Shown: positions 1,341-62,590 of the stretch, in pieces | Numbering within the stretch: the stretch's first letter is position 1 | Layout: each line of letters begins with the position of its first letter | Source of the DNA: Incurvaria masculella | Lineage: Eukaryota; Arthropoda; Insecta; Lepidoptera; Incurvariidae | Assembly (NCBI GenBank): GCA_946894095.1 | Contig: OX335653.1 | Location: 5,089,001 to 5,153,000, forward strand | DNA length: 64,000 bases | Direction: 5' to 3' | Program-made: the position numbers and the translations under genes | Notes under the pieces: model-generated | The model's input: the letters and a program-made list of their open reading frames with translations, nothing else | What the model was told of the DNA's origin: nothing | Database searches by the model: none

Positions 1341-1627
1341 TCAGCGAAAGAAGAGTTGCGATTCGAGCGGCGGCGGTCGCGGTAGCGGGAGCGGAGGCGG
1401 CGGCGGCGGCGGCCCGTAGTTCGGCTCGTGGTTGTGGAAGCGCGACACGTTGAGGAGGCGGCCATCGATGCCGGTCTGCACGCGGCACAGGCACTTGTTG
1501 CGGCGCAGGCTGGCGCACGTCCAGTTGAGCTTGCCGGGCGTGCGGTTGTTGACGGTGAACTTGTTGCTGTCCAGCACCAGGAACCAGTTGCCGGGCTTCT
1601 TGTTGGACGGGATGAAGTGCATGTCCG
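1341..1627 (-). CDS. mod(mdg4): FLYWCH zinc-finger alternative 3' terminal exon
   Basis: A single exon encoding 94 residues after a two-base split codon. The acceptor on the minus strand is a T-rich tract ending TTTCAG at 1628-1630, and the stop is TGA at 1341-1343. The FLYWCH domain fills the first 60 or so residues: an F-I start, W-F-L-V-L, then WTC, a second Cys seven residues later, and a closing HNH followed by NY. These give the C2H2 zinc ligands of the family. The tail is Pro-rich, then LESQLFFR. FLYWCH fingers in mod(mdg4) isoforms give the shared BTB protein its isoform-specific DNA or protein contacts in chromatin insulator complexes. The exon is GC-rich in AT-rich surroundings. No start codon is needed, because the 5' part of the protein comes from exons outside the window. 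Naming the locus mod(mdg4) is an inference from FLYWCH type, terminal-exon structure and shared splice phase. Confidence 0.85.
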
Positions 1628-4252: not shown

Positions 4253-4521
4253 CTAGGGCCGGCCGAGCTTGACGAAGAGGCCGGAGCCGGCGCGCGCCTG
4301 CGTGGGCGGCGGGTGGCGGTGGTGCGCGGAGGTGGTGTCGGCGCGGCCGAGCGGGTCGATGCGGACGCGCGCGCGGCACCCCGTGTGCTTGGACGAGCAG
4401 TAGAAGCAGCGCGCGCCCACCTGCGAGTACGTGTAGCCGCCCAGCACCAGGATGTAGCGACCCTTCTCCGTGCGGATGAACTGTAAGCGGTCGGCGGCCA
4501 CCCACGCTGCCGCTTTTGCAC
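4253..4521 (-). CDS. mod(mdg4): Divergent FLYWCH alternative 3' exon (acceptor ambiguous)
   Basis: The frame encodes a FLYWCH-like finger: FIRTEKGRY, ILVLGGYTYS, then FYC, a second Cys in GCRARV, and a late AHHRH as the His pair. The usual Trp before the first Cys is replaced (ARCFYC), so it is a divergent member. The stop is TAG at 4253-4255. The best-looking acceptor, TTACAG just before FIR, would put the finger in the wrong phase compared with every other exon. Two in-phase acceptors exist, at CCCCAG (exon from 4521) and GGCAG (exon from 4506), both with weak pyrimidine tracts. The start is therefore uncertain and the exon may be decaying. Two degraded copies of its middle lie just downstream (about 4040-4230). 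Confidence 0.6.
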
Positions 4522-8669: not shown

Positions 8670-9010
8670 GCTCATCACTAAACAGAAATACCGTGTCATC
8701 ATAATCCATTAGGAGCTTCCATAGACTACTGTTCATGAATTATAAACAAGGTAGGGCCTAGACTACTACCTTGCGGAACTCCTCTACTGATCATCATGCT
8801 CACAATTTTTGTCTCATTTATAATAACAGTCTTCTGTAATGTTTGTGTTCTTTGTGATAAATATGATTTTAGCCATTTATAAGAGTTACTAGATGTATGT
8901 AGATGTATGTTACTAAATTTTCGATGGAGAAGTCCATGAGAGGCCGTGTCAAAGACTTTTTCAAGGTCTATGAATGCAGTAATGCAGGCGCGCTTCGCGT
9001 ATACTTTTTC
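8670..9010 (-). pseudogene. LINE reverse-transcriptase fragment
   Basis: The minus strand reads AFIDLEKVFDTASHGLLH, matching the catalytic F-DLxKAFD motif of non-LTR reverse transcriptases, and further on GVPQGSSLGPTLF, the next conserved block. Frames are broken and no full element surrounds it. Confidence 0.75.
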
Positions 9011-10429
9011 TGCAATTTTAGAAAGATGATGTATTAGTACTCGCAGCCTTAGTACCTTTGCCGGGTCAAAAACAAAAATTGTGTATTTTCAAGGTGTTTT
9101 TGCTTTTCTCGATAACTAATAATCTGAGTATTTACTATTTTTTCAATAATTTTGCTTAATTATTTTTGTTAATCATTTTTTTTTTATAAACGTTTATTAT
9201 TGCATCTAGAAAAATCATGTGACAAAATTTACAAACTAAACTAATCTTTATATTAAAAAAATATTAGGCGGTGGTTATTTAAATTTGATTTTTCTCCTGA
9301 TTTGTATATGGGAACTAAGTTGACAGCAACAGATCGAAAGGCAGACGCGTGCACATAATTTAGTTACCTATTTACTTAGGTACTTACGCAGGAACTCCAT
9401 AATTCAGCTACACGCGAATTGTATTACCTGATTGATATAGATATCTGATGAAATTATCTTCTGTGATATAAAACATGTGCATTACTTACCTGAATACTCG
9501 CCAGCTCCCTAATTATGAAGTCACAACTAATAACAGCCCCATTCTCTCATATTTAAAAAAAAAAAACAGTTTTTCATACTGTGAGTTTTAAATGAAATAA
9601 AAATAAAGAAATAAAAATTATTAGAATAGAACAATGTTATGAGGTATGAAGCAGTAGAACATGATATAAAGAAATAATAGGCCCAATTGTATGTATGTAT
9701 TTATGGTACCTATATATTAAAATCAAAACCTTGCCACCTAAACTGGCCATTAGTGGTTTATAGATGTAAGGTTATGAAAATGAACTATTCATACCATGTG
9801 CAAAAATATCATTTTATTGGCAAACATCGTCTGATGCCAAATACGATTTTGGTGATGAAGGCATTATATTTGAATGTTCAATCTTTGCAGTCAAGGTCCA
9901 CAATGCAGGTAAATAATTAAATCAATGTATGTAGTTATAATCTTAAATGCGGTGTTGGAAGGAGGCATTGATTACGGGAGGAGGTACTGTGAAGAATTCG
10001 AAATTATGGGTATACCGCAGGTGGCGTAATTGGAAGACGAAATACCCGCGAATGGTATTTTTTGCTGGTTAGGGTCCAGCCTTGCAGTATATTCGTAACG
10101 TCGTTATTTTTACAGGGATCCTTCTTTAATTAATGTGTTCTTGCGTCACAGTAAATTCACATTTCTTGGAATAAACGACACAACTGCTTAATACGAAAAA
10201 GTATATTTTCGCATTGAATATTGGTATTTTGCGAAAAAGAATTTAATTGTAATCGATATTTCAGTGGTGATCATATTTGTGTGTTTTAAAAACCGTAAAA
10301 TGTATAGATTTGGTCCATTGCAAAGATGTGATTGATGTCAGTTCGTGGTTTATTTCTTTGGAATTTTATTTATTATTCTGCTAAATTGTGGTGTGGGTAA
10401 ATTTTTTGCCAGCATGCATTCTCTCAAAC

Positions 10430-17010: not shown

Positions 17011-17191
17011 CAATTCATTTACTCTTATTCATCAATTTCAAATCATTTGACCTAATGACGCAACACTCCAACTATGGCCTGTGCATGCCGTCTGTACAGA
17101 TTTAACGTGCGGATTAAAATCCATTGGGGTGGAGTCGAAGAGTCGAGCGACGTCAGTCGACCCACGCCTTCCTGCTCCATCCATTCGGTTC

Positions 17192-17250
17192 GGCGCAGCT
17201 GCAGCCAGCAACCGGTTTGCGAACAACCGGTTGCTGGCTACAGCTGCGCC
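17192..17250. repeat. Hairpin with 26-bp arms
   Basis: Arms 17192-17217 and 17225-17250 differ at one position (gccagcaaccggtt in both senses), with a 7-base loop. Confidence 0.85.
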
Positions 17251-17833
17251 TGCATAGCTGAACCAGTGACTGCCCCACTTGTCGGCTTCCAACGGACTTC
17301 TACGTTGTGCTGGAGATCTCCACTTTCTCCGGGAAGCATAAACTTGCTACGTCTCGGCTGTCATACTTCATGGAGTGAAGCAGCAAACACGTACAATTGC
17401 GTAAACGTTCATCTTCATGTCATGTGAAAAAAGCAAATTCGTTATCCAAAATGTGCTTTGCTGAGGGAGTGCAAAGTTTAGAGAGTGTTAGACACCACAA
17501 ACACGTAAAGTATTCCAGATGGTCATGTCCACTGCAACCGATTTGTGAACCGCATGCCAGTGCCGGCTGCTAAAACATGGACTGCTCCAGTATTTCTTGG
17601 GTTATAACAAACTTTAATGCATAAAAACTTGCCAACACGTGGATAAGATGATAGTAAGAATATTACAACTAAGATTTTCCAAAAGGTTAGCCTTCGTCCT
17701 TATTTTGTAAATATCCATGTATTTTAAGAGTTAGTTATAGGCTCTAAAGGCTTGTATCAGAAAAAGCACTTGTTGCATGAATTTATTAGACATGTATGGC
17801 AGCACGAGTGACGTTTAATATAACTTTTACCAA

Positions 17834-18461: not shown

Positions 18462-18904
18462 TTACTTATCGGCGGTGGGGGCGGCGGCGGCAGCGTCAGT
18501 CTTGCCGACCACCTCGGTGATGGCGTGCTTCCGGCAGAACGCCCACCACCAGCGGTAGCCGGCGACGAAGTCCGCGAAGCCGAACCTCGGCCGGCGCGCC
18601 CGCACCAGCTTCTCGACAAACACGAGCACCTCAGGCAGGGCGCGGCGCGAGCGGCGCTTGAGCGTGCGCGTCGCCGCGCAGCAGAACTCGAGCACGGCGC
18701 GCTCCTCGTCGTCCGTGAGGCCGGCCTCCTCGAGCGCGCGCATCCTGTTCGTCTTGCCGAGGATGTTGTCGTAGAGCGTTCCCTTGGGGATGTGGTAGCG
18801 CGACGAGGCGAGCGTGAAGCTCAGCTTCTGGCCGACGACGGCGCGGATCGCCTCCTGCAGCCGCACGCGCCGCCAGTACTTGAGCTTGATCTCGGCGAGC
18901 TCGC
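18462..18904 (-). CDS. Alternative 3' exon with pipsqueak/CENP-B-type helix-turn-helix
   Basis: The exon encodes 146 residues after a two-base split codon. The acceptor is CGACAG at 18905-18907 and the stop is TAA at 18462. Residues about 12-50 match the HTH_psq fold (LQEAIRAVV, then YHIPKGTLYDNI). Residues about 60-135 resemble the CENP-B/Tc5-type second helix-turn-helix, ending WWWAFCRKHAIT. This pair is the DNA-binding half of pogo-class transposases and their domesticated relatives. No catalytic domain follows; the tail is Ala-rich. A poly(A) signal (AATAAA on the minus strand, 18401-18406) lies about 55 bp past the stop. The exon is strongly GC-rich like the FLYWCH exons and shares their splice phase, so it is probably an alternative end of the same BTB gene. 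A separate gene with upstream exons elsewhere is the alternative. Confidence 0.7.
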
Positions 18905-28395: not shown

Positions 28396-28745
28396 TTAGG
28401 TGAACTGCACGCCGGCCGAGTGCTCCATGAAGTGTGCGAGCGCGGCGATGGTGGCGGGCGGGAGGCGCGGCAGGTGCGGCAGGTGCGGGTGGTGCGGGGG
28501 CGACGGCGCGCGCCGCTGCCGGTAGTAGTTGGGCGGGTGGTTGTGGCGGTTGCGCACGCGCACGAGGCTGCCCTGCAGCGTGGTGAGCAGGCGGCACGCG
28601 CAGCCGCTCGTGCGCAGGTTGGCGCACGTCCACGTGGCGGTCGCGTTAAAGCGCCGGTTCACCGTGAACCGGTTGCCAGCGTGCACGAGGATCCAGCCGC
28701 GAGCGCCGTCGCGACCGCCGCGGCACGACCGCTCGTAGAACAACT
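28396..28745 (-). CDS. mod(mdg4): FLYWCH zinc-finger alternative 3' terminal exon
   Basis: The exon encodes 115 residues after a two-base split codon (AG, then TTG TTC TAC). The acceptor is TTGCAG at 28746-28751 and the stop is TAA at 28396-28398. The finger runs over residues 1-75: LFYERS, WILVHAGNRF, then WTC, a second Cys eight residues on in GCACRL, and HNHPPNYY. The zinc ligands are intact. A His/Pro-rich tail of about 40 residues follows. The acceptor and first ten or so codons have been copied twice into the upstream intron by a 209-bp tandem repeat (28707-29333). The same two-base phase as the other exons supports membership of one alternative-exon array. Confidence 0.85.
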
Positions 28746-39461: not shown

Positions 39462-39649
39462 TCAGGAGTGGTCGTGGTGGTCGTTGACGGCCACGATGAG
39501 CGTGCCGTGCGTGCGCACGGAGGCGCGGCAGAGGCTGTTGCGCGAGCACACCCAGCGCGCGCGCAGCGACGCCGACGACGTCTTCAGCCGGTAGCGCCGC
39601 CGGTTGTACAGCAGCAGCGGCTTGCCGCGACGCGACATCACGAACACGC
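39462..39649 (-). CDS. mod(mdg4): Compact FLYWCH alternative 3' exon ending in UGA-C
   Basis: The exon encodes 61 residues after a two-base split codon (GC, then GTG TTC). The acceptor is TTTGCAG ending at 39650 and the stop is TGA at 39462-39464. It is almost nothing but the finger: FVMSRRGKPLLLYNRRRY, a Lys-Thr-Ser segment, WVC, a second Cys six residues on in LCRASV, and DHHDHS at the end. The stop comes one residue after the His pair, shorter than usual. The stop is followed by C, and the same frame stays open for about 70 more codons, so a longer ancestral tail or readthrough is possible. Splice phase matches the other exons. Confidence 0.85.
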
Positions 39650-43722: not shown

Positions 43723-43922
43723 TCAGTGCGAGTGGTTGTGCGCGCCGCCGACCGCGACGATCTCGCGGTGGAACGTGCGCAGCACCGCCGTGCACTGGTA
43801 GCGGTTGCGGGCGGCGCAGTACCACAGCAGCTTGGGCTGGTTGCGGTACGCGTTGTGCGGCCGGTACAGGTAGCCGTTCAGCATCAGCTTCGGATATCCC
43901 TTCTCGTTGTACACTATCCGCA
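43723..43922 (-). CDS. mod(mdg4): FLYWCH alternative 3' exon with suspected premature UGA
   Basis: The exon encodes 65 residues after a two-base split codon (TG, then CGG ATA). The acceptor is GATGTTTCAG ending at 43923. The finger is canonical: VYNEKGYPKLMLNGYLYRP, an Asn/Gln-Pro segment, LLWYC, a second Cys eight residues on in YQCTAV, and AHNHSH. The stop is TGA (43723-43725) followed by C. The frame then continues without a stop for 44 codons (LQPSRARPTRV..., LFRIYTERFSS..., GPAHRRH) to TAG at 43588-43590. A decayed downstream copy has TGG where this exon has TGA, so the longer form is probably ancestral. The exon now is either truncated or read through. Its splice phase matches the array. 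Confidence 0.85.
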
Positions 43923-43929
43923 CTGAAAC

Positions 43930-45455
43930 ATCACGCAAACTGTTAGTCGGTGTCCACACGTGCACGTCGATCGATAGAACGTTGAAAATGCTCACATGAG
44001 GTATTTTTAAGAAACCTTCAATAAGTACATTATTGACACCAAACAATGAGCAGTCGTAATAGTGAAGTCACTAAACTAACTAAAACTGAGTTTATGTAAA
44101 GTGAAACCCTTTTTCCTGGCGATTTAAAACATTATTGATAAGACTTTTTAGGTGCCTCTACCTTTAAACCTTTCGTCCATTAAGCATCGAGAAACATTTG
44201 AACAATAATGTTTGGAAAAATAACGAGAAATTCGTTTCACTTCCCACAACTTTGATTGAATAAAATACTAATTTGGATCAACCGATATATTTACGTCTTC
44301 GCCTGCATTTATATTAATCAAGGGGGCTCGCTATATTGTATGTTGTTTCTTGTTGCTGCAACAAAGCATTAACATTACAATTTTTTTTTTTTCAAATATA
44401 CTTCAATAAATATTGTTACATGAAATACAGTATCTTTTTCAACAGTTTTCTTGACCATGTGCTGACCAAGTCTACATTTGAATCATCAAATAAAAAATAC
44501 ATGTTTCGACAGTTTGGTAGTAGCAAAGACAAGCAACAAATAAAAAGGAGACTACACAACTGTTTTCACAATTTTTAAGGCTCAGAAAACGAAAAAAAAG
44601 CAGTCAACATTTTCCTTGGTGGGTATTTGCTATAGTCAGCATGTATGTAAATACGTAGACTTGTCTCTATCATGTAAAAACAAATGTTTGAACTTAAGGC
44701 CTAAATTATAACATGCGACTATAGACACATATAAAACATAATTGATTTTTTTTATCTTTAAAAAATATATGAACATAGCCACTAAACATTCAATACATTC
44801 CAATAACGTCATAAAATATTTTACAAATAAGTGCACGACAACAAATGAGATTAATATTGTAGGCGGAAGCGAAAATTTAGTCAACATAAAATTACAATAC
44901 AATTTTAGTGAAAATTTAAACGTTTTAGTCACTACAAAAATTGATTTTATCATAAATTATGTCATGTTAAAAAATATATACGAAATAGCCACAGTTGTTT
45001 TCAATGTGAAACAAAGAAAATTCATCACCGAAATCAAATAAAGGGTAGGTACAAATTTAAGCCAAATACTTTGAAAATAAAACACACGAAACTAAATAAA
45101 ACGCTTTTAAAACTACGTTGTCTATGTGTTTTAGTTTCCGTTTAACATTTGTTTCGACATCATTTCTTGGCAAAATCCATTTCTTATGGACTGCATATTA
45201 TGTTAAGAGTATATTTAGTATCCTACAATAAACATATTATAATCATCTAATAAATAACAATTTTCGAACAGGTATCTTAGGCTGGCTTATTATCTACACT
45301 AGCTGTTACTACATTTCATAAGCTATGAATAGTTAGTTTACTTTTACGCTAAAATAATTTAAGACTACACTAGTTGGAGTATTGTTGTACCTACAAGGTA
45401 ACATCAGTCGTTTAACAAGGCCGAGCGGCAGGAATGCAATCATACACTAACCTAG
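43930..45455. other. AT-rich intron-like spacer
   Basis: No repeat ends or coding signals recognised. Confidence 0.4.
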
Positions 45456-45459
45456 ATTA

Positions 45460-45930
45460 ACCTGCATATGGAATTCTACCCCGTTAGACCCACACACATG
45501 GAATTCTACCCCGTTAGACCCATACACATGGAATTCTACCCCGTTAGACCCAAACGCATGGATTTCTAATCCGTTAGATCCACACACGTGGAATTCTACC
45601 CCGTTAGACCCACACACATGGATTTCTAACCCGTTAGATCCACACACGTGGAATTCTACTCCGTTAGACCATCACACATGGAATTCTACCCCGTTAGACC
45701 CACACACATGGATTGCTAACTCGTTAGACCCCCACACATGGAATTCTGAGCCGTTAGACCAAAACACATAAAATTCTACCCCGTTAGACCAACACACGGA
45801 ATACTACTCCGTTAGACCCACACACATGGATTTCTAACCCGTTAGACCCACAAACATGGATTTCTTCCCGGGTATATCCACACACATGGAGTTCTACCCC
45901 ATTAGACCTACATGCATGGAAGAAGGTGAG
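45460..45930. repeat. 30-bp minisatellite, about 15 units
   Basis: Units of 30 bp built on acacatggaattctacccc plus gttagaccc repeat head to tail with point changes and occasional one-base length shifts. The minus strand reads as repeated GSNGVEFHVC decapeptides over parts, but the length shifts break the frame. Confidence 0.9.
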
Positions 45931-46126: not shown

Positions 46127-46464
46127 CTAGAACACGGCGGAGAAGGGCCCGACGCGCTGCGTCGGCGGCAGCGGTGGCGCGCCCGCCGGCGGCGCCAGCT
46201 TGTACTTGCCGGCGGGGTCCACGTCGAACCGGCGCGCCGAGTGCTTGGCCGCGCTGTACGTGCGCGCGTGGTTGTGCACCCCGCGGAAGTACACGAGCCG
46301 GCCGTCGCGCAGGCAGAGCGCCACCTGGCAGCGCTCCGCCTTCTGGTAGGAGCGGGCGCAGCGCCACGTGACGCGGCGCGGGTGCGAGCCGCCGTCCTCG
46401 TAGAAGATGTGCCCGTCGGCCACCAGGTGCAGGCCGCCGCGCGCCGACCGGATGTAGAACCAGC
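46127..46464 (-). CDS. mod(mdg4): FLYWCH zinc-finger alternative 3' terminal exon
   Basis: The exon encodes 111 residues after a two-base split codon (GC, then TGG TTC TAC). The acceptor is TGTGCGCAG ending at 46465 and the stop is TAG at 46127-46129. The finger is in residues 1-65: WFYIRSARGGLHLVADGHIF, an acidic Gly-rich turn, VTWRC, a second Cys ten residues on in ERCQVAL, and GVHNHARTY. The spacing between the two Cys is longer than in the neighbours. A tail of about 45 residues follows (DVDPAGKYKL, then Pro-rich). It lies 2.2 kb from the next FLYWCH exon on the left and 1.7 kb from the one on the right, the densest part of the array. Splice phase is the shared one. Confidence 0.85.
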
Positions 46465-48204: not shown

Positions 48205-48536
48205 CTAGAGCGTGTCGTGTTCCAAGCCGTAGTTCTTGAAGGCGCGCTTGAGGTAGAGGTCCGTGAGGAGTGCGGGCGCGCGGGGCATCGCCGCCCCCGC
48301 GTGGCTGTGGTGGTTGTAGGTGCCGAGCACGCGGTTCTCGGCGGTGGTCTGCACGCGCGCGTTGCACCCGCGGTAGTTGTGCGTCGAGCAGTACCAGTTG
48401 CGCAGGCCGCGGACGGTGGTCGACTTGTGATAGTAGGCGTGGCCCTCGAACCACATGAGAGGTTTCTTGACGGCGGCGCCGGGCAGCAGCGTCGCGCCGT
48501 CCGCGTCGACGCCGTCGCCGCCGCTGCTGAGGGCGC
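48205..48536 (-). CDS. mod(mdg4): FLYWCH zinc-finger alternative 3' terminal exon
   Basis: The exon encodes 109 residues after a two-base split codon (GC, then GCC CTC). The acceptor is GTGTGCAG ending at 48537 and the stop is TAG at 48205-48207. A Gly/Ala/Asp-rich lead of about 22 residues comes first. The finger follows: KKPLMWFEGHAYYHKSTT, RNWYC, a second Cys eight residues on in GCNARVQT, and YNHHSHA. The tail (ALLTDLYLKRAFKNYGLEHD) looks helical. The longer lead before the finger is unusual in this array. The AG and its phase are the same as in the other exons. Confidence 0.85.
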
Positions 48537-53110: not shown

Positions 53111-53879
53111 AAAATAGTAATATGAAAGCGGATTTTGTGAATTGCTTTCTTCTTCTATTGTACTACGTCTTCTATATATTCTTCTACGTCAGGCCAAAGA
53201 TGTTCATTAGTCGATAAAATATGGGCATCGGACTGATTTAATTAAGAGACTGCTGTATTTTGAATTAGGTTATCTGTTCTAATTGTTGTTACGGAGACGA
53301 CATCAGTTTTAGATGTTGAGGCATGAAATCCACGTATACATTTACATCTTGATATTTTAATTTGATTCTGTTTACAATAAATCGCCACAAGTGACACTCG
53401 TTTGTGTTATCTCTTTATGTTTCGGCTGAAATTCATTTTGGACGCATTTCTATGTCTGGAGATATTTTCATGTTTTCTAATGTATTGTATTTTTACCCGA
53501 CTGCGAAAGAAGGAGGGTGTTTTCGATTGTAAATGTGTTATTATCTGTACGATATTGCTTCCAAAGCAGTACAATTCCAAATATGTCATATTTTATTTTT
53601 CCAATGTTTTCCGTGTTTTTAAATAGCTTTACGGTACGTAGGGGCAGTATTTCTTGTAACGGCTCATAAACAGATTTAAGAATATTGTAAGTAAAATTCG
53701 GTTAAAAGTTGGATTTATCAGCATTTTCACGAGTCGCATCTGTATCAATCCGAGATTTTTATTCATAAGAATTGAGAAGTTTAATATTTTCCGTCAATAT
53801 TTTCCGATCCAAAGGGATACAAGCCTTAAAACTATTGTACATGGTTTCCGGTTGTATTGATCAATAAAAAAAATATTTA

Positions 53880-54460
53880 CTAGAGAACAAAAGTCCGCTC
53901 TCTTGAGCTCAGTACAACACTTGAGAGTTTTATATTACCGGACGTATTTTTCAAGATCCCTTCATAGAACGGAACACGCCCACGTACAGTTGTTGGAACT
54001 GATGTAGACTTAGGAAGCAAAACGATTAAAATAATTTCATGAATTTCATTCTTACAAAATTCGTTCATCTCGAATGAAATGTGTGATTTGTGTCCAGTGA
54101 GAAACAATACTGCGGGTAATTTTATTCCTTCCTTTTGCATCCAAGAATAAAATAATATATTTTAAAACTTGTCTTTGGTCATCCAACTGCTTTCAGAATG
54201 CCCAACGCTCCTTCCTTAGGGAGTCGAAGGAGCCGTATCATTGGAAAGCTTCCTTAGGCGAGGGAATAGTATTAAAAGTCCTTCCTCATGATTGATCATT
54301 GCATGTACGATTACTTAACCGTTTTGAGCCTTCCGAACTATGGAATAATTGAGTTTAGAAAAAAACAGTCCCTCCGCACCTAAATAAACGAGTTGGATCA
54401 TTAAGTATTTCTGAAAGACTGCCATCTTCGAAATAGGTCTTTGCCTTGAAAAATCAGCTC
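53880..54460 (-). pseudogene. Broken catalytic domain of a pogo/Tigger-like transposase
   Basis: Behind the stop of the 54472 exon the minus strand still shows transposase-like blocks. TYFEDG and ILNDPTRLFRCGGT match the region of the first catalytic Asp (family form NADET or CDETG), with the acidic residues replaced. After a degraded stretch, LPAVLFLTGHKSHISFEMNE matches the second catalytic block (family form FVDGHKSH), with Thr in place of Asp. STSVPTTVRGRVPFYE matches the third block without its Asp. Stops lie between the blocks. It cannot be an active DDE enzyme. This is the dead half of the element whose DNA-binding half is the intact exon next to it. Confidence 0.75.
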
Positions 54461-54471
54461 TCAATTGCCTT

Positions 54472-54899
54472 TTATGTTTTTACAATACGACATTTAGTTA
54501 GATCCTGACAAACGTGTTCTGCTAACACCTTATGTCTCTCCATGAAACTATTGTACCATCCATCGCCGGGTACTCCACCTCTAAAAGGATTGGACCTTTT
54601 TAGTTGTTTTACCATCTTTGCTACATTATCAAGAAGGTCTACTTTTGTAATTGGAGACCCTCTTTCACTTCGCGCTATCGCCCAATTTACAATGGATTGT
54701 TCTTCAGTTTCTGTGAGTACCGTTGGTCGTCCAATTCTTTCATGCATGTGCCATTTATGGAGTTTTTCATGCAGTATTGTTTTTGGAATTCCATATTTCA
54801 TTGAAATTTTGTACACTGCACCTCCTTTTCTTATATCCTCTATGGCTAGCTTCAAATCTTCCCGAGTGTAAGTAGCAATTTTTCTAACAGGGAGCCATG
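54472..54899 (-). CDS. Transposase-derived helix-turn-helix alternative 3' exon
   Basis: The frame encodes 141 residues after a two-base split codon (CA, then TGG CTC). The acceptor TTTTTTCAG (ending at 54900) is the strongest in the window, and the stop is TAA at 54472. Residues about 10-48 are an HTH_psq domain (TREDLKLAIEDIRKGGAV, YGIPKTILHEKL). Residues about 60-130 are a CENP-B/Tc5-type domain (RPTVLTETEEQSIVNWA, then GDGWYNSFMERHKVLAEH). Together they are the DNA-binding half of a pogo/Tigger-like transposase. The broken catalytic half follows on the same strand, while this half has no stop or frameshift. It is AT-rich, suggesting recent arrival. The shared splice phase suggests it can be spliced to the same upstream donor as the FLYWCH exons. 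It may instead be only the best-preserved part of a dead transposon. Confidence 0.65.
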
Positions 54900-55429
54900 C
54901 TGAAAAAACAAAGAATATTTAAATAATGAAAACAACCACATTCTTTTTGGTTTACAAAAAGGCGGAATTAATGCCATGAGGCATTCTCTAACATTTCAAC
55001 CTTAGAGACGTAGAAGAGGTGCGGTTTGGCGGACAAAAAAAAACTAAAAGCAAATTAAAGAAAATGTTAGTATCTCTACGTATAGTATCTTAAAAAAAAG
55101 GTATTTAAAATTAAATAGAAAAATACATAAAAATTCAAATGATAAATATACAGTCCATAATATATGCTTATAATATATTATGTTAACATATAGATACATA
55201 CAAGTATTTATACATATAAATACATACATTTATTATCAATGCACAAAGGAAACAACGTTTCTGTTGATTCAGTAGGATCAGATTGACAACTAATGATAAA
55301 ACTATGCAAGTCAGGAAGCAAGGAACACATAATACTTCGGTACTGGAAACCATTTTGATTTCTTATTGACCTATGTAGTTAGAAGATATAAATCTTAATG
55401 GTTGGTTTTGATACTCGAAAATGTATAAG

Positions 55430-55620
55430 AAAAGTTGATAACCTGATTAACTCATGGACTTCACCTAATCTGAAAAAGTTCTTATTCGTGACATTCGTCG
55501 GAAGCAGGATTCGAATCTGCGACCTCTGGATTACATGTCCACCGCTCTAACCAACTGAGCTATCCCGTCATTGAGTTGGCTGACATTACGTCAGCCAACT
55601 CATTTCTCGATTATATTCGA
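55430..55620 (-). mobile_element. tRNA-derived SINE
   Basis: The minus strand has a tRNA-like head: GGGATAGCTCAGTTGGTTAG, an anticodon arm with TGT, and a T arm with TTCGAAT. The stems have mismatches, and the head is followed by the same body as at 15106-15190. It is a SINE, not a functional tRNA-Thr gene. Confidence 0.7.
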
Positions 55621-62306: not shown

Positions 62307-62590
62307 CTACGGCGAGGAGTAGTATCGCTGCGGGTGCGAGTAGTGCGGCGGGTGCGTGTGGCGGCCGTGCGCGCGCAGGAAGTGCCCCTGCGCCGTGGTG
62401 AGCACGCGGCAGCGGCAGCCGCAGCGCTTGATGTACGAGCACGTCCAGCTGAGCGTGCCGCGCGCTCGCGAGTTGATCGTGTACTTGTCGCGGCGGTACA
62501 CGAGCAGGTGGTGGCCGGGCCGCATGGACGGCACGTAGAACAGCTCGCCGCCGCCCTCCTCCAGCGTGACCTCCACGGGCAGGGACCAGC
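62307..62590 (-). CDS. mod(mdg4): FLYWCH zinc-finger alternative 3' terminal exon
   Basis: The exon encodes 93 residues after a two-base split codon (GC, then TGG TCC). The acceptor is GGTTGCAG ending at 62591 and the stop is TAG at 62307-62309. A short acidic Gly-rich lead precedes the finger: LFYVPSMRPGHHLLVYRRDK, SWTC, Cys-rich RCGCRCRVLT, and GRHTHPPHYS. Several Cys sit near the second ligand position, as in the exons at 1341 and 28396, which it resembles most. The tail is short and Ser/Tyr-rich. It is the right-most exon seen, so the shared 5' exons are expected further right. Confidence 0.85.

Follow-up and report, generated by a model that had tools for sequence, protein, structure and literature searches.

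A putative BTB-joined isoform exon from the DNA-binding half of a dead pogo-like transposon in a mod(mdg4)-type locus of Incurvaria masculella

Introduction

The mod(mdg4) gene of Diptera and Lepidoptera consists of a BTB donor and alternative, partly trans-spliced FLYWCH acceptor exons; excerpts of PMC4667647 put the number of exon combinations per species at up to 41, count 24 acceptor genes over 550 kb in the monarch and, in connection with Aedes, give distances of 950 kb to 1.28 Mb between donor and acceptor. The FLYWCH domain is present in most, not all, known mod(mdg4) isoforms (excerpts of PMC4667647 and PMC11426971) and has been reported as transposase-derived (excerpt of PMC10027918). 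BTB domains of the mod(mdg4) type form multimers and function in insulators and repression (excerpt of PMC11426971), and in Drosophila a retrotransposon is reported to be repressed by Mod(mdg4) variants (excerpt of PMC9723646). Host-transposase fusion, or 'transposase capture', is exemplified by KRABINER and SETMAR (Cosby et al. 2021, as cited in an excerpt of PMC12062965). In our own reading, transposase capture has mostly been inferred from finished fusion genes.

Here we analyse a stretch of 64,000 nucleotides (the window), located at C13:5089001-5153000 in a genome of 552 Mb in 31 contigs, where a preliminary description had proposed an ongoing host-transposase fusion. Judged from sequence, the helix-turn-helix (HTH) half of a dead transposon at 54.9 kb may be kept as an isoform exon joined to BTB, its catalytic half having decayed; we assign this reading a probability of about 0.5.

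Results

A genome search for FLYWCH placed 149 of the 150 best-scoring matches on C13 between positions 3920974 and 5198034 (1.28 Mb), on both strands; the best 150 of 618 candidates were scored, and the counts are thus lower bounds and represent domain matches, not isoforms. Two BTB halves, at C13:5221951-5222082 and 5221435-5221578 on the minus strand, lie upstream of the listed minus-strand FLYWCH matches, on the same chromosome and strand as the HTH exon. Read as joined, they matched BTB at E 2.4e-26, and the BTB search (75 matches) returned no other match within 3.9-5.25 Mb of C13. The common exon with the second BTB half ends in ...ATG ACT G/gtaagc and the next common exon in ...GCA CAA G/gtaggt, each with one base over, which puts the end of both common exons read in phase 1; their donor ends lie at C13:5221020 and 5220658 on the minus strand. 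The layout of BTB exons plus a FLYWCH array matches that of mod(mdg4) in the excerpts of PMC4667647, and the locus is therefore read as mod(mdg4)-type, with a predicted BTB donor and alternative terminal exons. A span of 1.28 Mb is not in itself unheard of, given the Aedes distances; the number of FLYWCH domains is the striking part. The designation mod(mdg4)-type derives from the layout of BTB and FLYWCH array and from an apparent sequence likeness.

Besides the HTH frame, ten frames on the minus strand of the window were submitted to Pfam. FLYWCH was found in eight (seven over the cut-off and one just under) and a psq HTH in one; frame 17041-17346 (-) yielded no Pfam domain. The coordinates of the window features are collected in Table 1. 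Along the array, GC3 shifts from 0.36-0.77 at 4.16-4.96 Mb (13 sampled exons) to 0.85-1.00 at 4.97-5.20 Mb (7 of 7 sampled, at 4.967-5.198 Mb), as seen over the 20 sampled exons and the window exons except the HTH exon. Other elements were also observed in the window: a stretch at 8726-9088 (-) resembles, by eye, part of a non-LTR reverse transcriptase; a 30-base unit is repeated in tandem in about 15 copies at 45468-45921, with a partly open frame at 45451-45771 (+); and a tRNA-Thr-like gene (ARAGORN) at 55495-55570 (-), beside stretches repeated in the window, is possibly the head of a SINE. Elsewhere in the array, L043 (C13:4026698-4028056, minus strand) holds an open frame of 452 residues for a pogo-like transposase that belongs, as judged by eye and by psq and catalytic matches, to another subfamily. 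L006 (C13:4762255-4762380, minus strand) has a 103-residue frame with its own Met and a psq HTH of 50.7 bits; a FLYWCH exon is about 1 kb away, and L006 is either a transposon remnant or a further exon. At C13:5400748-5401143 (+), the pogo-like copy L032/L044 carries a 185-residue open HTH frame with its own in-frame ATG.

Table 1. Features of the window, numbered from its first base
Feature	Position	Strand	Remarks
FLYWCH isoform exon a1	1341..1627	-	Pfam, AG list, array phase
FLYWCH isoform exon a2	4253..4521	-	Weak FLYWCH, 21.2 bits vs 23.6 cut-off; array phase
AATAAA	18401..18406	-	56 bases beyond stop of 18.9-kb exon
Intact array exon, psq + Tc5-like bipartite HTH	18462..18904	-	Open from junction to stop; GC3 0.96; array phase
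FLYWCH isoform exon b	28396..28745	-	Pfam, AG list, array phase
FLYWCH isoform exon c	39462..39649	-	Pfam, AG list, array phase
FLYWCH isoform exon d	43723..43922	-	Pfam, AG list, array phase
FLYWCH isoform exon e	46127..46464	-	Pfam, AG list, array phase
FLYWCH isoform exon f	48205..48536	-	Pfam, AG list, array phase
Decayed catalytic (DDE) half + C-terminal remains	53542..54471	-	Stops, shifts, three Asp blocks changed
AATAAA, possible poly(A) signal	54121..54126	-	346 bases past HTH stop
Candidate isoform exon, psq HTH + Tc5/CENP-B HTH	54472..54899	-	141 codons + stop
Presumptive original transposase ATG	54896..54898	-	Other frame than HTH half; comparison with ATG of L010
3' splice-site-like: poly-pyrimidine tract + CAG	54900..54917	-	First exon base 54899
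FLYWCH isoform exon g	62307..62590	-	Pfam, AG list, array phase

The preliminary description had reported that the HTH half of a pogo/Tigger-like transposase is open at 54.9 kb, and this was borne out, the half being an unbroken run of 141 residues with a bipartite helix-turn-helix. Read from stop to stop, the HTH frame covers 54918-54472 (-) and 148 codons, the 141 being counted from the acceptor. HTH_Tnp_Tc5 was detected at E 1.2e-5, over the Pfam cut-off, and HTH_psq at E 1.2e-3 (19 bits, just below the cut-off of 20.4); the window copy thus has the N-terminal psq plus Tc5/CENP-B type HTH of a pogo/Tigger-like transposon. FLYWCH was absent from the exon by Pfam, which returned the psq and Tc5 HTH only.

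The exon lacks two bases of its first codon, as do all nine other window exons (with acceptors picked by eye among all AGs), and from either donor all ten window exons tested, the HTH exon included, read in frame. Elsewhere in the array, each of 20 sampled FLYWCH exons has an upstream YAG of the array phase, which is the nearest YAG in 19 (among them L055, at a distance of 71 bases) and the next in one; across all candidate YAGs of these exons, 32 are in the array phase versus 11 and 8 in the other two. The earlier claim that the HTH half shares the splice phase of the array, into which both donors feed in phase 1, therefore stands. HTH and BTB lie in one open reading frame across the predicted splice junction, as far as sequence alone can tell, giving the make-up of a host-transposase fusion. 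The phase match is real; alone it contributes a factor of about three, the sense orientation one of two. An ordinary dead transposon, with an HTH half (135 columns) open by luck, its own acceptor, and phase and strand matching by chance, would fit both at odds of about 1 in 3 times 1 in 2, and is a serious possibility. The exact fit of frame and phase to the mod(mdg4) donor, and the position of the exon inside the array and on the donor strand, speak against the proposal that the HTH half is an exon of its own small host gene, with an upstream exon outside mod(mdg4) and, for example, a role in repressing related transposons. In native elements a 5' intron may end at the 54899 acceptor, and the unequal decay described below is silent on the donor used, both of which agree with such a gene; given the fit to mod(mdg4), it is improbable.

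The acceptor at 54899 had been described as the strongest in the window, which it is not: it ranks 5th of 6449 AGs under an approximate insect matrix, and is the best among the ten exons compared. A CAG lies about 12 bases or less before the ATG in four of eight relatives inspected (L010, L013, L022 and L026); the pyrimidine tract ahead of it is weak in L013 and strong in the other three, and the remaining four relatives are ambiguous. Given this similar pre-ATG site in half of the relatives, the acceptor probably came with the element and is no sign of adoption, a host invention being unlikely; inheritance within the family is also what an ordinary dead transposon predicts. The presumptive original ATG lies directly behind the acceptor, and the first Met of the HTH frame is at 54801, inside the psq HTH. 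No in-frame ATG exists ahead of the first HTH helix, so that an intact HTH domain needs an upstream exon (barring a non-ATG start). The GC3 of the HTH exon is 0.28, similar to the 0.29-0.39 of related transposons and unlike the 0.93-0.99 of the nine other window exons, which speaks against the exon being long established and is in keeping with an ordinary dead transposon. It is conceivable, if rather unlikely, that the mod(mdg4) donor occasionally uses this strong inherited acceptor as splicing noise, without function or selection: the acceptor outscores those of the nine other array exons in the window, reads in frame and precedes an exon whose GC3 differs from its neighbours, and the retention of residues in the HTH half (see below) speaks against noise. 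This explanation overlaps that of an ordinary dead transposon, and the confidences given to the readings do not sum to one.

The statement that the catalytic half is ruined, with Asp changed in all three blocks, was confirmed by alignment to L010 on C24, the closest of the intact relatives found in this genome (517-residue open frame, 46% identity over the HTH). The blocks CDE / MDGH / PLDVAVF of L010 correspond to CGG / LTGH / QLYVGVF in the window; homologous blocks are thus present and the DDE/D residues are not, as in a dead copy. The Pfam DDE model was found neither in single frames nor in joined read-through pieces of the catalytic half. P0001 (DDE_1 + psq) matched the window read-through at E 1.3e-12, and the catalytic part of L010 found window positions 53994-54275 and 54283-54468, with 2 and 3 internal stops, respectively, in a genome search. 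The element extends past the interval of the preliminary description (53880-54899), to about 53540. In a search for terminal inverted repeats the best inverted match scored 11.5, versus 10-14.5 in 30 shuffles; an old copy may have lost its repeats.

The frame-aware alignment to L010 contained 6 stops and 5 shifts in 255 catalytic columns and none in 135 HTH columns; the full length of the alignment had 10 stops and 7 shifts. For 11 events placed at random, the probability of none in the HTH half is 0.009; it is 0.02 with the rate ratio from eight control copies, and 0.09 or 0.03 with the ratio from 15 HTH-found copies, with or without L032, respectively. The eight decayed control copies were hand-picked from catalytic-half matches, some also being in the 15-copy set, and showed 5 events in 985 HTH columns versus 12 in 1866 catalytic columns, that is, no general HTH bias, which counts against an ordinary dead transposon. 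In favour of such a transposon, the stop and shift asymmetry alone is modest (p 0.009-0.09), the openness of the half was the reason for which it was chosen, and a similar asymmetry exists in L032, outside the scored FLYWCH range, where the HTH is likewise open and the catalytic half ruined (1 vs 12 disruptions). Part of the asymmetry of the window copy may be due to ascertainment.

Conserved residues are also kept unequally, which an ordinary dead transposon would not lead one to expect. Among residues invariant in five intact relatives, the window copy kept 18 of 20 in the HTH half and 28 of 56 in the catalytic half (p=0.0015, Fisher test); the same five relatives, tested themselves, did not differ significantly between halves (p 0.08-0.6). 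With residues invariant in all nine relatives, 10/11 versus 11/23 were kept (p=0.024), and in this set the intact relative L013 differed in the opposite direction (p=0.047). Over five choices of relatives, p was 0.00015-0.09 for the whole catalytic half and 0.0014-0.6 for its best-aligned blocks; dropping gaps, shifts and stops gave p 0.0026-0.63, with two of the five choices non-significant (0.06 and 0.63). With two relatives the test was never significant (p=0.09 for the whole catalytic half and 0.6 for aligned blocks). Neutral simulations, started from L010 and tuned to the catalytic loss (giving about 6 catalytic stops, as observed), seldom yielded both no HTH stop and retention of at least 18 of 20 residues: the probability was 0.0018 with the divergence set deliberately low, and at the best-fitting divergence 0 of 5000 runs did so. 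The simulated divergence of 0.24-0.29 substitutions per site, if right, makes the insertion old, and sister species would then be expected to share it.

A comparison of dN/dS between the halves had been suggested as a check. In a codon model, w on the window branch was 0.080 for the HTH half and 0.113 for the catalytic half, the stops of the latter being left out; w=1 was rejected for both (p=0.018 and 0.015, respectively), and the background w was 0.040 for the HTH half (no difference, p=0.49) and 0.021 for the catalytic half (p=0.11). The check did not separate the halves, and cannot do so because synonymous sites are saturated. That the HTH half decayed less than the catalytic half is supported, not proven. 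Purifying selection on the HTH half may be the cause: the residue and simulation tests favour it, and dN/dS and GC3 leave it unsettled.

A further exon of the window, at 18.9 kb, has an intact bipartite HTH. In BLASTP (E 2e-7) it shares 26 of 100 residues with the 54.9-kb exon, over a stretch that begins where the first HTH ends and takes in the second. A profile built on 12 transposase N-termini matched the 18.9-kb exon with 40 bits, collinear across both HTHs. Its second half alone scored 11.4 bits versus 5.0 or less in 200 shuffles; the Pfam Tc5 model alone gave 12.3-13.6 bits, below the cut-off of 22.2. No second genomic copy was found by genome search, which returned four weak relatives (E about 0.006-0.007), and tblastn with ten transposases detected no DDE remains directly behind the exon; a 42-residue tblastn match near 18.1 kb (E 0.07) is on the opposite strand. 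The exon is best read as an older capture of a transposase DNA-binding half at the same locus, 36 kb from the HTH exon, and may alternatively descend from a host psq gene. As a case of capture it appears the stronger of the two, with odds higher than those of the 54.9-kb exon. Full-text literature searches, which mostly left subscription papers outside, met no description of an exon of psq/CENP-B type in mod(mdg4), as far as the texts covered go.

Discussion

The proposal of an ongoing host-transposase fusion is upheld in part: the locus, frame, strand, phase and lesser decay of the HTH half agree with it. The acceptor, probably inherited, is no sign of it, the transposon-like GC3 argues against it, the codon model does not separate the halves, and part of the asymmetry may stem from ascertainment. 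If the HTH half is indeed kept as an isoform exon, an old pogo-like (CENP-B/psq type) DNA transposon would have inserted in sense into the mod(mdg4)-type terminal-exon array, carrying its own 3' splice site just ahead of its coding sequence. The catalytic half would then have decayed, and the DNA-binding half would have remained readable because splicing can join a phase-1 donor to a phase-1 exon. The predicted product is BTB plus a linker plus a bipartite transposase helix-turn-helix. The variable end of the protein is thought to supply its DNA or protein target, and the product would thus tether a BTB architectural or repressor protein to DNA resembling transposon ends. We infer splicing in vivo, selection for function and a DNA target for the HTH exon; the 18.9-kb exon would represent an earlier capture at the same locus.

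More tentatively, the mod(mdg4) array could be a landing pad for transposons, repeatedly recruiting transposase DNA-binding domains, with FLYWCH as the oldest case. Any sense insertion with its own pre-ATG acceptor in phase 1 would immediately create a BTB-fusion isoform, and at least two recruitments of CENP-B/pogo type would have occurred, one intact at 18.9 kb and one in progress at 54.9 kb. If true, this would explain how mod(mdg4) arrays gain isoforms without FLYWCH, and chromatin proteins directed to transposon-end sequences would result. A single locus would then offer a seemingly finished and a half-finished case with the same type of domain and one junction phase as the frame rule, so that the steps of capture would be open to direct test here, from insertion, the inherited acceptor and the fit of the frame to the loss of catalysis and the retention of binding.

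The locus resembles mod(mdg4) in its BTB common exons and in a large terminal-exon array on both strands of one chromosome, mostly of FLYWCH type; it differs in that a bipartite transposase-type HTH replaces FLYWCH in one intact and one candidate exon. Compared with pogo/Tigger-type transposases and CENP-B (PF05225 + PF03221 + DDE_1 PF03184), the window copy has lost its catalytic Asp blocks, and terminal inverted repeats were not found in it, the inverted-match score being within the shuffle range. In pipsqueak and bric-a-brac, psq is not known to be accompanied by the second Tc5/CENP-B HTH and forms a constant part of one gene. These BTB-psq proteins of insects share with the predicted product the order of BTB followed by a psq HTH (excerpt of PMC11426971). 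As in known host-transposase fusions (excerpt of PMC12062965), a transposable element lies near a host gene, coding sequence is exonised and a DNA-binding domain is combined with a host regulatory domain, all of which is predicted in the present case. In contrast to these fusions, the HTH half alone remains readable here, and the receiving gene of the putative capture is an array already built for adding terminal exons.
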